A stretch of DNA of 33,849 nucleotides from Ardenticatenaceae bacterium (lineage in GTDB: Bacteria > Chloroflexota > Anaerolineae > Ardenticatenales > Ardenticatenaceae): assembly GCA_026989095.1 (NCBI GenBank), contig JALSKA010000006.1:1-33849 (forward strand), given 5' to 3'. Shown piece by piece: positions 7,749-14,867 of the stretch (its first letter is position 1; each line of letters opens with the position of its first letter). Under the pieces are notes generated by a model. That model saw only the letters and a program-made list of their open reading frames with translations. It searched no databases and was not told where the DNA came from. Position numbers and translations under genes: made by a program.

Positions 7749-8972
<1,224 letters not shown>

Positions 8973-10058
8973 TCACCGGCAGGTGGCCTTCGCGGGCTCG
9001 GGCCGGCCGGCTCGGGCGGACACCAGGTGCTCGAGGGCGGCGCGCAGCACGGCAATGCCCCGCCGGTATTCGTCCAGCTCGACGTGCTCGTCGGGCGTGT
9101 GATCCAGCCGGGAGTCGCCCGGGCCGTAGGCCACAATGGGGCACTCCCACGCCGGCCCCACCACGTTCATGTCGCTGGTGCCCGTCTTCACCTTGAACCT
9201 GGGCCTCCCGCCAACCCGCCGGATGGCGTGGAGGAAAGCCCGGGTGAGGGGCGTGCGCCGGTCGGCCACGAAGGCAGGCTCGGCCCCCCGAAACGCCAGG
9301 CGGCCGCCGTTCGGGTTGAGAGCCTGGAGATCGCGCTTCAGCGTGGTGGGTGCCAGGCCAGGGGGCAGGCGAAACGCAAACGTGGCCCGCACCACGTCCT
9401 CGTTCCCCTCGCGGCGGGTTTCGATGTGACGCAGGCTCGGCTGGAGTTGGTGGAAGGCCCCCTGCCGGCCCCGGTTGAAGCGCTCGACGTAGGCCACGAT
9501 GGCGTTCCAGTAGTTGACGGCGTGTTCGGCCACGGCCCGGCCGGGGCCGGCCGTGTGGGCTGTGGGCTGACGGCACTCGTAGTCGAGCAGCAGGCGTCCC
9601 TTGTAGCCCACTGTGATGGCGTCCCACCCGCTGGGCTCCCCCACGATGCAGAAGGCGGGACGGTAGTGGCGGGCCACGTGGCGGGCGCCGCGCGAGGTGG
9701 CGGCCTCCTCCTCCACAGCCCCCACCACCACGAACTGCCAGCCCTCCACCGGGCCCAGCTCGGCCACGGCCGTCACGAAGGCGGCCAGCGGCCCCTTGGC
9801 GTCCACGGCCCCCCGGCCGTAGAGCCGGCCGTCGCGGATTTCAGGGCGGGGCCCGCCGGGCACCGTGTCGATGTGGCCCAGCAGCAGGACCTGGCGTGGC
9901 CCGGTGCCCAGAACGCCGACCGCGTTGCCGGCCTCGTCCACGTGGGCGTGGAACCCCAGCGCCCCCATCTGCTCGACCAGCCAGGCCACGGCCTCGGCCT
10001 CCTGGCCGCTGGGGCTGGGGATGGCCACGAGCCCCTGGAGCAGAGCGATCTCGTCCAT
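8973..10058 (-). CDS. lysK: LysK: [LysW]-lysine (or -ornithine) hydrolase, M20 family
   Basis: LysK releases free lysine (or ornithine) from the C-terminal Glu of the carrier LysW, the final step of the pathway. The 361-residue protein is an M20 metallopeptidase: GHIDTVPG (first metal His), [14 protein letters not shown] (bridging Asp), [13 protein letters not shown] (catalytic Glu pair), [10 protein letters not shown] and, near the end, [13 protein letters not shown]. It lacks room for an acetylornithine-deacetylase-type larger lid and sits next to lysJ, supporting LysK over ArgE. GGGAGGAA lies just before ATG 10058. The gene follows lysJ by 16 bp. Confidence 0.92.
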
Positions 10059-10074: not shown

Positions 10075-11247
10075 TCAGCTCATGTGGCAGATGTGGGCGA
10101 TCACCGTTTCGACCGCCCGGCGCCAATCGTCCTCGCCGATGGTGAGCGGGGGCAACAGGCGCACCACCGTCGGCCCGGCCGGCAGGGCCAACACGCCGTC
10201 CTCCTGGAGCGCGCGCAACAGCGGGGTGACGCGCCGCCTCAGTTCCACGCCCACCATGAGGCCCAAGCCCCGCACCTCGCGCACGGCCGGGGTGTCGGCC
10301 AGCGCACGGCGCAGCCGGCCCAGCGCCCACGCGCCCAGGCGGGCGGCCCGCGCCGGCAGGTTCTCCCCCTCGAGCACGTCCAGCGTGGCCAGGGCGGCGG
10401 CACAGGCCAAGGGGTTCCCGCCGAAGGTGGAGCCGTGGCTGCCGGCCGGCAGGGCGCCCACGCGCGGCCCGATGGCCACGGCGCCGGCGGGCACGCCGGC
10501 GGCCATGCCCTTGGCCAAGGCCACCATGTCGGGCACCACGCCGAAGTGTTGAAAGGCGAAGAGGCGTCCCGTGCGGCCGAAGCCGGTCTGCACCTCGTCG
10601 AAGATGAGCAGGGCGCCCTGCTCGTCACACAGGGAGCGCAGCGCGGCCACGTACTCCGGATCGGCGGGGCGCACGCCCCCTTCTCCCTGAACTGGTTCCA
10701 CGATGACGGCGGCCGTTCGCCCGGAGATGGCCTTGGTGGCGGCCTCCACGTCGTTGAAGGGCACGTGGGTGACCTCGGGCAACAGGGGCTCGAAGGGGCG
10801 GCGGTACTTGGGCTCCCACGTGAGGCTGAGGGCCCCCGTGGTGCGGCCGTGAAAACCCCGCGTGGCCGCCACCAGCCCCGGCCGCCCCGTGACGAGGCGG
10901 GCGAATTTCAGGGCGGCCTCCACGGCCTCGGCGCCGCTGTTGCACAGGAAGAAGCGGGGAAAGCCCGTCACGTGGGCGAGGCGGGCCAGCAGGACAGCGC
11001 GCACGTTGTTGGCGAAGGTGCCCGGGCAGCTCACCAGGCGGCCGGCCTGCTCGGCCAGGGCCCGCACGACGGCCGGGTGGGCGTGGCCCAGAATGGCAGC
11101 GCCGTGGCCGGCAATGCAGTCGATGTAGGCGCGCCCCTGCGCATCCCAGACGCGGGCGCCTTCTCCCCGCACGATGGTGAGCCCGCGCAGGGCGTAGACG
11201 CCGGCACCGTGTTCTCGTTCAACGCTCAGCGGGTCGATGTTGGACAT
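10075..11247 (-). CDS. lysJ: LysJ: [LysW]-aminoadipate semialdehyde transaminase
   Basis: This PLP aminotransferase converts LysW-bound aminoadipate semialdehyde to LysW-lysine with glutamate as donor; the same family also handles glutamate semialdehyde for ornithine. The 390-residue class III (acetylornithine-type) protein has [55 protein letters not shown] (PLP Asp), ALAKGMAAG (PLP Lys) and [24 protein letters not shown] lies before ATG 11247. Its place between lysZ and lysK fixes the LysW-linked role, although the sequence alone would also allow ArgD. Confidence 0.9.
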
Positions 11248-11296: not shown

Positions 11297-12106
11297 TCAC
11301 CGCGTGATGGTCGTGCCGTCCCCTCGGAGGGCGGCCTGGACCGGCCTTTCGGCCGCGCTGGCGGCGATGATCACGTGGCGCACGCCACCGTCGAGGGCCT
11401 CGCGGGCGGCCAGCAGCTTGAGCCGCATTCGTCCCCGGGCGTAGTGCTCGATGGCAGCCTCGATGTCGGCCCGGCCGAGGCGTGGCACCAGGCTATTTGG
11501 GTCATCGGTCCGGCGCAGGAGCCCGGGCGCGCCGGTGAGCAGCACCAGGGTGTCGGCCCCTAAGGCCGCGGCCACGGCAGCGGCCGCTCGGTCGCCGTCC
11601 ACGTTGATGATCTCGTGCTCCGTGCTGATGGCCGGCGGGCAGAGCACGGGCGCGTAGCCGGCCTCCAGGAGCAGGCGCAGCAGGCCGACGTTGACGTGTT
11701 CGACGGTGCCGGTGTAATCGTCCCGCAGGACGAGGCGGCGCCCGTTCCGCACCACGCGGATGGCTCGCTTGCGAGGGCCCTCCAACAGCCGGCCGTCCAC
11801 GCCCGAGAGCCCCACGGCGTTCACCCCCCGCGCCTGAAGCCCCTCGACCACGAGTTTGTTCACCTCGCCCGCGTAGACCATGGTGAAGATAATGGCCGTC
11901 TGGCGGTCGGTCCGCCGGCTGGTGTACCCCGAAACCGAGGTCACGAACTCCGGCGGGTGGCCCAGGGCCGTGGCTACCTCGTTGGTTCGCGCCGAGCCGC
12001 CGTGGACCAGCACCCAGCGCCTGCCGGCGTGCCACAGGTCGGCCACGTCGTCCAACACGGGGTCGATGGCGTTGCCCTCACCTCCGCCAACTTTGACCAC
12101 GAGCAT
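11297..12106 (-). CDS. lysZ: LysZ: [LysW]-aminoadipate kinase
   Basis: LysZ phosphorylates the side-chain carboxyl of aminoadipate (or glutamate) attached to LysW. The 269-residue amino-acid-kinase-fold protein starts MLVVKVGGGEGN and has LVHGGSARTNEVA, where true ArgB enzymes usually read HGGG. It continues with INVDGDRAAAAVAAALGAD and LLTGAPGLL for nucleotide binding. GAGGAG precedes ATG 12106. It follows lysY by 42 bp; in that gap a short CCCCGTT/AACGGGG inverted repeat (12143-12158) spans the lysY stop codon. Confidence 0.91.
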   Translation of the reverse strand: MLVVKVGGGEGNAIDPVLDDVADLWHAGRRWVLVHGGSARTNEVATALGHPPEFVTSVSGYTSRRTDRQTAIIFTMVYAGEVNKLVVEGLQARGVNAVGLSGVDGRLLEGPRKRAIRVVRNGRRLVLRDDYTGTVEHVNVGLLRLLLEAGYAPVLCPPAISTEHEIINVDGDRAAAAVAAALGADTLVLLTGAPGLLRRTDDPNSLVPRLGRADIEAAIEHYARGRMRLKLLAAREALDGGVRHVIIAASAAERPVQAALRGDGTTITR

Positions 12107-12148: not shown

Positions 12149-13180
12149 TCAAACGGGGTGGAGCCCCAAGAATGTTAGCCCGGCCCGTTCGTCCCACCCT
12201 TGGGCCACGTTGAGCGCTTGGACAGCGCTGCCGGCCGCCCCTTTCATCAAGTTGTCCAACGCGCTGACGATCACCACCCGCTGGCCGTGGTCGTCCACTG
12301 CCCATCCCACGTCGCAGAAGTTGGTGCCGGCCAGGATCTTGGGTTCGGGGAAGCGGTAGATGCCCGTGCGGTCCCGCACCAGGCGCACGAAGGGTTCCTG
12401 GCCGTAGGCGGCACGGTAGAGCTGCCAGAGATCCCGGTCGTCCAGGGGGCGGGTGAGGAAGACGTGGGCTGTGGCCAGCACACCCCGCACCATGTCGATG
12501 GCCGTGGCGGAGAAGAAGAGCCGTTCGGGCTCGAGCCCCAGCGCCTGGCAGATTTCGGCCTGGTGGCGGTGGCCGACCGGGGCGAAGGAGCGCACGGCGC
12601 CGGCGCGTTCCGGGTGGTGGGAGGCGCTCGAGGCCCGCGCGCCCCCCTCGCTCGAGCCCACCTTCACGTCCACCACGACCCGCTCGATGATTCCCTCGCG
12701 TGCCAGGGGCCAGAGGGCCAAATTGACTGCGGTGGCGTTGCACCCCACGCCGCTGATGTAGCGGGCACCGCGTAGCCGGTCCCGCTCCAGCTCCGGCAGG
12801 CCGTAGACGAAGCGGGACCGCCATTCGGGGAGCACGGTCTCCCCGCCGTACCAGCGGGCGTGCTGGGCGGGGTCACGCAGGCGGAAGTCGGCCGAGCAGT
12901 CCACGACGGTGTGGGCCAGGGCGGCGAAGTGCTCCATCTGCCGGGCGGCCTGGCCGTGGGGCAAGCAGAGGAAGAGCACGTCCACGGGCTCCAGCTCGCT
13001 CACGGGGCGAAATTTCAGCCGGGTGGCGCCCCGCAAGTTGGGGTGAACGCTGTAGACGTACCGCCCGGCCAGGCGCTCGGAGGTGATTTGGGTGAGCTCG
13101 ACGTGAGGGTGGCCCAGGAGCAGGCGCACCAGCTCCCCGCCCACATACCCGGAGGCGCCTACCACGGCAGCGGTCAACAT
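12149..13180 (-). CDS. lysY: LysY: [LysW]-aminoadipyl-phosphate reductase
   Basis: LysY reduces LysW-bound aminoadipyl phosphate to the semialdehyde with NADPH. The 343-residue protein is an ArgC-like semialdehyde dehydrogenase: [17 protein letters not shown] (nucleotide-binding loop), [34 protein letters not shown] with the catalytic Cys, and [20 protein letters not shown]. The last segment differs from ordinary ArgC and fits the LysY group. The ATG at 13180 overlaps the end of lysX by 7 nt, with GGAGG inside lysX, so the two are translationally coupled. Confidence 0.91.
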
Positions 13181-14064
13181 GGGCGCACCTCCGCCGAAAG
13201 GGCTGGCAGGGGCTCCCGATCTCCTTCGGCCACGCGCACCACGTAGTCCACAATGCGGGCCGGGATGTCCACGCCCGTGGGGGCGATGGAGTTGCGGAAC
13301 TCCATCGTATAGTTGACCTCGTTGACGAGTAGCCCCCGCTCGCTCTCGAAGATGTCAACGGCCAGCACGCCGCCGCCGACGGCGTGGGCGGCTTGGACGC
13401 AGATGGCGTTGAGCTCGTCGGTGACGGGGAAGTTGGCCGCGCGGCCGCCCCGTGCCGTGTTGGTGATCCAGTGTTCCGAGCGGCGTTCGATGGCGCAGAT
13501 GGTCTCGTCGCCCACGACGAAGGCGCGGATGTCCCGCCCCGGCTTCTCCACGTACTCCTGGATGTAGAAGATGGAGTGTTGGACGCCCCCCAGGGTGCTC
13601 TTGTGCTCCAGGATGGCCTCGGCGGTGTAGCGGTCGGTCACCCGGGCCATGAGGCGCCCCCACGAGCCCGTGGCCGGCTTGAGCACCACGGGGTAGCCCA
13701 GCTCCTCGATGGCCCGGAGGGCCGATTCTGGCGTGAAGGCCACCCGCACGCGGGGCTGGGGCACGCCGGCGCGGGCGAGGGCCAGCGAGGTGAGAATCTT
13801 GTCCCCGCAGAGGCGGCCCACCTCCAGGCGGTTGACGCAGGGGATGCCGAAGCGCTCGAAGACGGCGAGGGCGGCGAGGGCCCGCGAGTGGCTGATGCAC
13901 CGCTCGAGGATGACGTCGATGTGCCGCCAGCGCTCGCCCTGTTCCAGGTCGAAGACCACATCGTTGTCGTAGATCAGTTCGTAGTCGATGCCGCGCCGCT
14001 CGATTTCGGCGATGAGGAGCTTTTCCTCCACCCGGACGCGGCCGATGAGAATGCCGATGCGCAT
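13174..14064 (-). CDS. lysX: LysX: [LysW]-alpha-aminoadipate ligase (ATP-grasp)
   Basis: LysX joins the amino group of alpha-aminoadipate (in some relatives glutamate) to the C-terminal Glu of LysW using ATP, protecting it for the next steps. The 296-residue ATP-grasp protein shows [20 protein letters not shown] (ATP loop), [28 protein letters not shown], and [13 protein letters not shown] followed by [10 protein letters not shown], the family's metal- and substrate-recognition end. The N-terminal half carries [23 protein letters not shown] precedes ATG 14064. Substrate preference (aminoadipate versus glutamate) is inferred from the downstream homocitrate synthase. Confidence 0.91.
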
Positions 14065-14174: not shown

Positions 14175-14351
14175 CTACTCGCCCCAGTCCTCTTCGACTT
14201 CAGGGGCCAAGTCGAGGGCGATGGGGTCGAGCCCGACGACTTCCAGCTCCACCCCACACTCCGGACACTGGACGATCTCGTGCAGGAGCACGTCGCCCTC
14301 GAAGGGAACGTCGGCAGCGCACTCGGGACATGTTGCGACTTGTGTGCTCAT
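14175..14351 (-). CDS. lysW: LysW: amino-group carrier protein
   Basis: LysW is the small acidic carrier whose C-terminal glutamate gamma-carboxyl holds alpha-aminoadipate through all later steps. The 58-residue product has a zinc-ribbon N-terminal half with C8-x2-C11 and C29-x2-C32, an acidic second half, and the diagnostic C-terminal EDWGE. I chose the ATG at 14351 because AGGAGGG lies just upstream; the longer open frame to 14480 is only run-through of the leader. It is the first enzyme-pathway gene of the operon, 110 bp before lysX, and is preceded by two intrinsic terminators, each behind a lysine-rich mini-ORF. Confidence 0.96.
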
Positions 14352-14460: not shown

Positions 14461-14494
14461 GAAAAGAGCCGGGCCTTCACACGAGGCCCGGCTC
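14461..14494 (-). terminator. Second leader terminator, upstream of lysW
   Basis: On the minus strand GAGCCGGGCC and GGCCCGGCTC form a perfect 10-bp stem (plus coordinates 14466-14475 and 14485-14494) with a 9-nt loop, followed directly by TTTT. It lies 110 nt before the lysW start and 29 nt after the stop of the second mini-ORF, as expected for an attenuator. The U-run is short, so termination may be partial. Confidence 0.7.
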
Positions 14495-14522
14495 GTCGTT
14501 GCCTTTTCGGCGTGTGTCGGCG

Positions 14523-14636
14523 CTAGGGCACGCACGACGGACCAGACCCCGTGTCCGGCACGGTCTTCTTCATCATCTTCTTGATCTTGGTCTGGTCCGC
14601 CGGCGGCTGTACGGCGGCGGAGTGGAACGATCTCAT
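14523..14636 (-). CDS. Putative leader peptide 2 of the lys operon (37 aa, lysine-rich)
   Basis: ATG 14636 is preceded by GGGGAG 8 nt upstream and opens a 37-codon frame ending TAG. Its centre reads QTKIKKMMKKT: six lysine codons, all AAG, within nine residues. Outside this run there is no lysine. Perfect 10-bp inverted arms, GGTCTGGTCC (14589-14598) and GGACCAGACC (14539-14548), flank the lysine run, so its codons sit in the loop of a possible hairpin. A U-tract terminator follows. This is the layout of an attenuation leader in which ribosome stalling at Lys codons alters folding. No family similarity is claimed, and translation is unproven. Confidence 0.6.
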   Translation of the reverse strand: MRSFHSAAVQPPADQTKIKKMMKKTVPDTGSGPSCVP

Positions 14637-14660
14637 CGTCTGGTCTCCCCTGCCCGGAAC

Positions 14661-14697
14661 AAAAAAACCGGCTGCCTTCTGGTCCGGCAGCCGGTTT
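14661..14697 (-). terminator. First leader terminator of the lys operon (12-bp stem, U7)
   Basis: On the minus strand AAACCGGCTGCC-type arms (plus 14665-14676 and 14686-14697) form a perfect 12-bp stem with a 9-nt loop, running into seven consecutive T at 14667-14661. This is a textbook intrinsic terminator. It lies 40 nt after the stop codon of the first mini-ORF and 310 nt before lysW. Confidence 0.85.
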
Positions 14698-14759
14698 GGG
14701 AAGCTTCCCGTCCTCGGTACTCACGCCCAAACGGGGCTAACCGGACCTTGGGGCCGGTT
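14681..14759 (-). promoter_or_regulatory. Competing antiterminator / anti-antiterminator of the first attenuator
   Basis: Three strands can pair in exclusive ways. Arms 14754-14759 and 14739-14744 (AACCGG/CCGGTT, extended by two pairs) form hairpin 1:2 at the end of the first mini-ORF. Strand 2 (14747-14735, GGTCCGGTTAGCC on the minus strand) can instead pair with strand 3 (14692-14681, GGCTGCCGGACC) as 7 + 4 bp around a small internal loop. Because strand 3 includes part of the 5' arm and loop of the terminator at 14661-14697, this 2:3 pairing blocks termination. A ribosome paused on the Lys codons would cover strand 1 and favour 2:3. The pairing is read from the sequence; function is inferred. 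Confidence 0.6.
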
Positions 14760-14805
14760 GCCAGGTCATCTTCTTCCGCTTGGGCATCAAGGAAATGGCA
14801 CCCAT
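14737..14805 (-). CDS. Putative leader peptide 1 of the lys operon (22 aa, PKRKKM core)
   Basis: ATG 14805 follows GGAG (14815-14812) by 6 nt and lies about 27 nt after the predicted transcription start. The 22-codon frame includes MPKRKKMTW (codons AAG CGG AAG AAG) and ends TAG inside the terminator-competing segment. The control-like codons are four codons ahead of the first pairing strand, which suits attenuation. The Arg codons leave open a joint Lys/Arg response. The start of the peptide loosely recalls ribosomal protein L32, but it stops after 22 residues and is not that gene. Confidence 0.6.
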   Translation of the reverse strand: MGAISLMPKRKKMTWQPAPRSG

Positions 14806-14837
14806 GGGCTTCTCCACAACGTAATGAACCACTGCCA

Positions 14838-14867
14838 ATAATACCAGAGGTGTTTGTGGCCTGTCAA
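14838..14867 (-). promoter_or_regulatory. Sigma70-type promoter of the lys operon
   Basis: On the minus strand a perfect TTGACA (14867-14862) and TATTAT (14843-14838) are 18 bp apart. The start would fall near 14832, giving a leader of about 480 nt before lysW. This is one of the best promoter matches in the window. Confidence 0.8.

Follow-up and report, generated by a model that had tools for sequence, protein, structure and literature searches.

The leader of the LysW-type lysine operon in this Ardenticatenaceae bacterium very probably carries, on a single transcript, two complete ribosome-mediated (trp-type) attenuators arranged one after the other, each reading charged tRNA-Lys. On the minus strand, a promoter is followed in the 5′ to 3′ direction by a 22-codon ORF, a terminator with a U7 tract, a 37-codon ORF, a terminator with a U4 tract and lysW. 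Our analysis confirmed this tandem of Lys-rich ORFs and terminators. Moreover, each of the two modules contains an antiterminator (strands 2:3) and a protector (strands 1:2), which were absent from an earlier sequence-only reading of the same DNA and are the strongest internal evidence.

Layout of the leader and of the operon behind it

The window analysed here is the whole stretch of 33,849 nt. The leader features, numbered within it, are as follows.

14838..14867, minus strand: sigma-70-type promoter, TTGACA-18-TATTAT, 11/12 consensus matches
14815-14812, minus strand: GGAG of leader ORF 1, 6 nt upstream of the ATG
14737..14805, minus strand: leader ORF 1, MGAISLMPKRKKMTWQPAPRSG, 22 aa, three Lys codons, all AAG
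14776..14785, minus strand: module 1 strand 1, GCCCAAGCGG, in the minimum free energy (MFE) fold, with the first Lys codon inside
14726..14747, minus strand: module 1 strand 2, GGTCCGGTTAGCCCCGTTTGGG, leader stop codon inside the span
14681..14700, minus strand: module 1 strand 3, CCCAAACCGGCTGCCGGACC, common to antiterminator and terminator
14661..14697, minus strand: intrinsic terminator 1 with U7, hairpin at 14697-14665, 12-bp stem, −22.7 kcal/mol
14648-14645, minus strand: GGAG of leader ORF 2, 8 nt upstream of the ATG
14523..14636, minus strand: leader ORF 2, MRSFHSAAVQPPADQTKIKKMMKKTVPDTGSGPSCVP, 37 aa, five Lys codons, all AAG
14589..14598, minus strand: module 2 strand 1, GGACCAGACC, abutting the first Lys codon (14588) on its 5′ side
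14536..14554, minus strand: module 2 strand 2, ACACGGGGTCTGGTCCGTC, forming a duplex with strand 3
14479..14497, minus strand: module 2 strand 3, GACGAGCCGGGCCTCGTGT, common to antiterminator and terminator
14462..14494, minus strand: intrinsic terminator 2 with U4, hairpin at 14494-14466, 11-bp stem, −23.5 kcal/mol

The sequence-only reading had proposed the near-consensus promoter, two short minus-strand frames with ribosome sites and a terminator behind each frame; all of these were found where it had placed them, on the minus strand. Among minus-strand sites between 14100 and 15300, only the one at 14867-14838 matches at least 9/12 promoter positions, so both modules should share one transcript. 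Both short ORFs contain Lys clusters and are thus enriched in codons for the end product, and not one but two intrinsic terminators lie between a leader ORF and the first structural gene. Elsewhere in the window, the number of modules combining a Lys-cluster ORF with a terminator was zero. The counterparts of ORF 1 in the same genus read MRMSFSTPKRKKMSQPATWSG and MWCAVFVPKKKVMHHPAHGPVSPVWA, and those of ORF 2 read MMSACITILGRTANWTKKMKKMSPDRGSGPSCVP and MNVHLHATGIPQPAGRTKKAKQMKKTMSDLGSGPSCAP.

The sequence-only reading had also stated that the genes downstream make lysine, and family models bore this out with the gene order lysW-lysX-argC/lysY-lysZ-lysJ-lysK-homocitrate synthase. The genes behind the leader therefore make the amino acid that its codons would sense.

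14175..14351, minus strand: lysW, amino-group carrier protein (TIGR01206, above cut-off)
13174..14064, minus strand: lysX (TIGR02144, above cut-off)
12149..13180, minus strand: argC/lysY-type reductase (TIGR01850)
11297..12106, minus strand: lysZ, [LysW]-aminoadipate kinase (NF010659)
10075..11247, minus strand: lysJ/argD-type transaminase (TIGR00707, above cut-off); best-scoring model LysJ_Th_th, yet below that model's own cut-off
8973..10058, minus strand: lysK, [LysW]-lysine hydrolase (NF003367)
7749..8933, minus strand: homocitrate synthase (TIGR02146)

A search of the same genome for lysA, whose product completes the other lysine route (DAP), gave no match, which makes the LysW operon probably the sole source of lysine. 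In the fetched flanks of two isopropylmalate/homoaconitate dehydratase-type genes, trpE and two leuA-type genes of this genome, no leader modules were found for the residues tested. In a sister-genus locus (L006), the lysX frame (G002:C64:21802-22683) was reported with one TGA, which may be an assembly error or a frameshift.

Lys-codon modules upstream of lysW in relatives

Loci were gathered through LysX from whole genomes and a genome-contig collection, yielding 140 distinct lysW upstream regions. A strict scan (stop-to-stop ORFs, perfect-stem terminators, at least 4 Lys in 9 codons) found a Lys-cluster ORF with a terminator in 30/140 loci and none on the reverse strand. When the same scan was run by residue, Lys (30 loci) was the most enriched of the 20, followed by Arg (15), Pro (7) and the others at lower counts. 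The strict scan undercounted tandems, and a fold-based terminator scan with a threshold of at least 3 Lys in 9 codons was therefore used after by-eye reading of L158, L162, L174 and others. At least one module was then detected in 41/140 loci, two in series in 22 and one in 19, as compared with five singles and no pairs on the reverse strand. Elsewhere in the fetched loci, the background was 8 modules in 894 kb of strand, or about 0.006 per 700 nt.

The modules share a common geometry. The terminator follows the last Lys codon at a nearly fixed distance (median 64 nt, interquartile range 60–68, n = 63 modules), and a promoter matching at least 9/12 positions lies upstream of the first module in 34/38 loci, with 3.3 expected from shuffles. 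Lys is encoded by AAG 222 times and by AAA 44 times in the leaders. A Shine-Dalgarno-like tetramer precedes just 17/63 leader ORFs, taking the ORFs as picked by the script.

Every locus sampled from the genus (L003, L004 and our own) and from the sister genus (L005 and L006) has both modules. All five of these family members keep the Lys clusters, the terminator spacing and the antiterminator in both modules, and the other family of the order (L007) has a single module. According to the family labels in the genome collection, tandems occur in f1 (the family of this bacterium), f36, f16, f33 and f21, and in unassigned Chloroflexota contigs; at least five families within the class thus have tandem modules. 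The sequence-only reading had described two lysine-rich modules before lysW as a new arrangement in a different lineage. The arrangement is indeed there, but it is not private to this genome, being widespread in the class with 22 loci. Supporting the expectation that Lys codons are the sensor, alignments of the leaders in relatives, which that reading had proposed, revealed conserved Lys codons and covarying stems in the genus, the sister genus and other families.

In all tandems but one, module 1 matches a relative's module 1, and module 2 a relative's module 2, better than the two modules of the locus match each other. Only L182 departs from this pattern; the set contains no close relative of it, and it scores low throughout. 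These like-with-like matches indicate that each lineage has retained both modules since a common ancestor. We rejected a recent duplication because the two modules of a locus resemble each other no more than unrelated modules do. Between distant lineages, clear similarity of the module sequences has been lost, and in a quick LysX tree with a weak backbone the tandem loci form two groups, which are separated by loci with one module or none.

Several side observations came from the same survey. Two of the background Lys modules, L045:1691 (+) MGHHIILIVKKQSRKHKPSR and L050:2677 (+) MNTLLIQTTLQKIAKKTKANSY, have the same spacing and may be attenuators of lysine genes that the script missed as lysW. 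A single Lys-ORF with a terminator also lies before lysW in L054, L056, L071 and L083, from bins labelled Planctomycetota, KSB1 and Neomarinimicrobiota; these may be chance occurrences or genuine attenuators of other phyla. Additionally, in 15 loci (L014, L016, L018, L019, L022, L024, L029, L035, L057, L096, L101, L114, L148, L149 and L190) the first Lys leader ATG lies 7–10 nt after the −10 element, at the expected transcription start and without a Shine-Dalgarno sequence, so that these leader ORFs look leaderless. In contrast, the leader ORFs of the genus studied here start 32–53 nt after the −10 element and have a Shine-Dalgarno sequence.

Alternative pairings and their response to ribosome position

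In both modules, an antiterminator that is mutually exclusive with the terminator uses the 5′ arm of the latter. Strand 3 of module 1 comprises the terminator 5′ arm and part of the terminator loop, and its duplex with strand 2 (−31.2 kcal/mol) was equalled by 0/200 shuffles. When the ribosome is absent, strand 1 of this module is bound, in the MFE fold, to the 3′ portion of strand 2. In module 2, the 2:3 duplex (−28.7 kcal/mol) was equalled by 1/200 shuffles; the MFE fold joins GGACCAGACC to GGTCTGGTCC, a part of strand 2 that can alternatively pair with the 5′ arm of terminator 2. Both segments fold better than shuffled sequences, with z scores of −3.7 for module 1 and −4.2 for module 2. The mean energy of the 2:3 duplex was −22.8 kcal/mol with the module's own partner versus −17.1 kcal/mol with strand 3 swapped in from other loci (Wilcoxon p = 1.8e-12, a generous value because the loci are related).

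Covariation points in the same direction. For the f36-type tandems (n = 9), six pairs of the module 1 antiterminator changed on both sides, a number reached in 12/500 shuffles, and its covariation score was reached in 0/500. The terminator of that module has five such pairs (8/500 shuffles; covariation score 0/500). Compensatory changes were also seen in the antiterminator and terminator of module 2, in fewer pairs because this module varies less. The own family yielded a weaker signal, as expected from five sequences: 87% of cells were paired in the module 1 antiterminator versus 82% in shuffles, and 80% versus 76% in that of module 2, neither module being clearly above shuffles on every measure.

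The folds respond to the position of the ribosome. When nascent RNA was folded before strand 4, a ribosome on Lys codon 1–3 gave a long 2:3 antiterminator in both modules of the leader, and the 2:3 helix was incomplete with no ribosome or with a ribosome at the stop codon. Across all 63 modules, 5.4 pairs between strands 2 and 3 were expected with no ribosome, 3.3 with a ribosome at the stop and about 12 with a ribosome on Lys codons. In 59/63 modules, a ribosome on the first Lys codon left strand 3 more paired with strand 2 than did one at the stop codon, a contrast that is partly geometric because a ribosome at the stop covers strand 2. Relative to no ribosome, 2:3 pairs were gained in 54/63 modules, indicating that the competitor of strand 2 lies in or beside the Lys codons. 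By folding, therefore, a ribosome-free protector 1:2 forms and is blocked by a stall on the control codons. The second modules of the sister genus (L005 and L006) kept 2:3 even with the ribosome at the stop.

The two modules of the leader behave differently in full-length equilibrium folds. The module 2 antiterminator had a probability of 1.00 when the ribosome sat on Lys codon 1, 0.97 on Lys codon 2 and 0.00 at the stop. The terminator of module 1 prevails even when a ribosome occupies Lys codons (P 0.81–0.99). Since the finished terminator is favoured at equilibrium, the module 1 switch would depend on the order of synthesis, with 2:3 forming before strand 4.

Proposed mechanism, other explanations and known systems

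In the mechanism we propose, the leader ORFs are translated. When lysine is plentiful, the ribosome would pass the Lys codons, reach the stop codon and cover strand 2; strand 3 would then pair with strand 4, the terminator would form and RNA polymerase would stop. When lysine is short, the ribosome would stall on the Lys codons and cover strand 1, which includes or abuts them, allowing strand 2 to capture strand 3 ahead of strand 4 synthesis, and transcription would continue. With no ribosome, 1:2 would pair and transcription would stop. Because polymerase must clear both modules before lysW, read-through should equal the product of two probabilities, and such a product would tighten the off state and steepen the response. 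As an illustration with unmeasured values, a gate that passes 10% of polymerases under plenty and 90% under starvation would change output 9-fold alone and 81-fold in a pair. The second module could make the response steeper or two-step, as the sequence-only reading had suggested.

Other explanations of the leader were weighed against this mechanism. It is unlikely, though the least improbable of them, that one module alone regulates and that the terminator of the other is decaying, or constitutive and partial. One module evidently suffices in several relatives (the 19 single-module loci, including L007), and module 1 of this leader has only three Lys codons. However, Lys clusters, spacing and antiterminator are present in both modules of 5/5 family members, compensatory changes occur in both modules of the best-sampled group, and the match of each module to its counterpart in relatives indicates that both were retained. 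We consider it improbable that the signal is a Lys-rich nascent chain, through polybasic slow-down in the exit tunnel, or something else other than charged tRNA-Lys. Ribosomes can be slowed by runs of basic residues, and module 1 reads KRKK, but beyond Lys the peptides are not conserved between lineages, the number and spacing of Lys vary, AAA is used besides AAG, Arg clusters do not stand out clearly from those of other common residues, and the operon makes lysine. Arginine as a co-signal, also raised by KRKK, was rejected: at least 3 in 9 codons was reached for Arg in 17 loci, compared with 18 for Ser, 12 for Pro and 11 for Leu.

In Firmicutes and Gammaproteobacteria, lysine genes are usually controlled at the RNA level by the L box or the T-box. 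That one of these, a metabolite riboswitch or a T-box, operates here and the mini-ORFs are fortuitous is very improbable, as neither the window nor any of 20 related loci gave a gathering-score match to an Rfam family, the L box and T-box models included; the conserved parts are the Lys codons and the complementary strands, and no long conserved aptamer was seen among them. Chance is the least credible explanation. G+C-rich DNA commonly has short ORFs and hairpins, so A-rich or AAG-rich stretches might come to lie beside ordinary terminators, but the low background rate, the empty reverse strand at the threshold of at least 4 Lys in 9, the fixed spacing and the conservation across genera all argue against it.

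The attenuator kind itself is textbook, and no Rfam family covers the present case. Tsubouchi and colleagues are reported to have described, in 2005, lysine leader-peptide attenuation of a lysine cluster in Thermus thermophilus (Deinococcota), with a single attenuator. By that description, the Thermus leader resembles ours in the type of pathway and the presumed sensor, and differs in having one attenuator; here there are two, before lysW and in Chloroflexota. Like trp/his/leu-type attenuators, the modules described here combine a leader ORF rich in codons for the product, the 1:2, 2:3 and 3:4 pairings and a biosynthetic operon downstream. Attenuators are normally found one per operon (PMC3641672), whereas two complete attenuators for the same amino acid stand in series here. 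The closest parallel found is the Salmonella mgtCBR leader mRNA, where two ORF-containing attenuators respond to ATP and proline, a tandem termed a singular example by its authors (PMC3641672). Our leader likewise has two ORF-based attenuators, but those of mgtCBR read two different signals, whereas both ORFs here, and those of relatives, are Lys-rich and the operon is biosynthetic. Tandem riboswitches, such as those of Bacillus clausii metE, which sense two different ligands as cited in PMC3641672, also place two RNA switches in series with a combined output; they rely on ligand-binding aptamers, whereas the present modules rely on leader ORFs predicted to be translated. Our literature search found no report of lysine attenuation in Chloroflexi and, for same-signal tandem attenuators, nothing closer than mgtCBR; many subscription papers were outside its scope. 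The same-signal tandem, its conservation and the leaderless leader ORFs in related families therefore look new.

We regard as evenly balanced the broader proposition that the same-signal tandem is a general, selected design of the class, in which two tRNA-Lys gates with read-through equal to their product have been long kept, were perhaps assembled more than once and provide a wider dynamic range or a sharper threshold, with leaderless leader ORFs in some families. With two same-signal gates in at least five families and single-gate relatives beside them, the benefit of a cascade becomes directly testable, the candidates being dynamic range, a sharper threshold and lower leakage. Collectively, our results would extend lysine leader-peptide attenuation to Chloroflexota, where some leader ORFs are apparently translated, by prediction, without a 5′ untranslated region.
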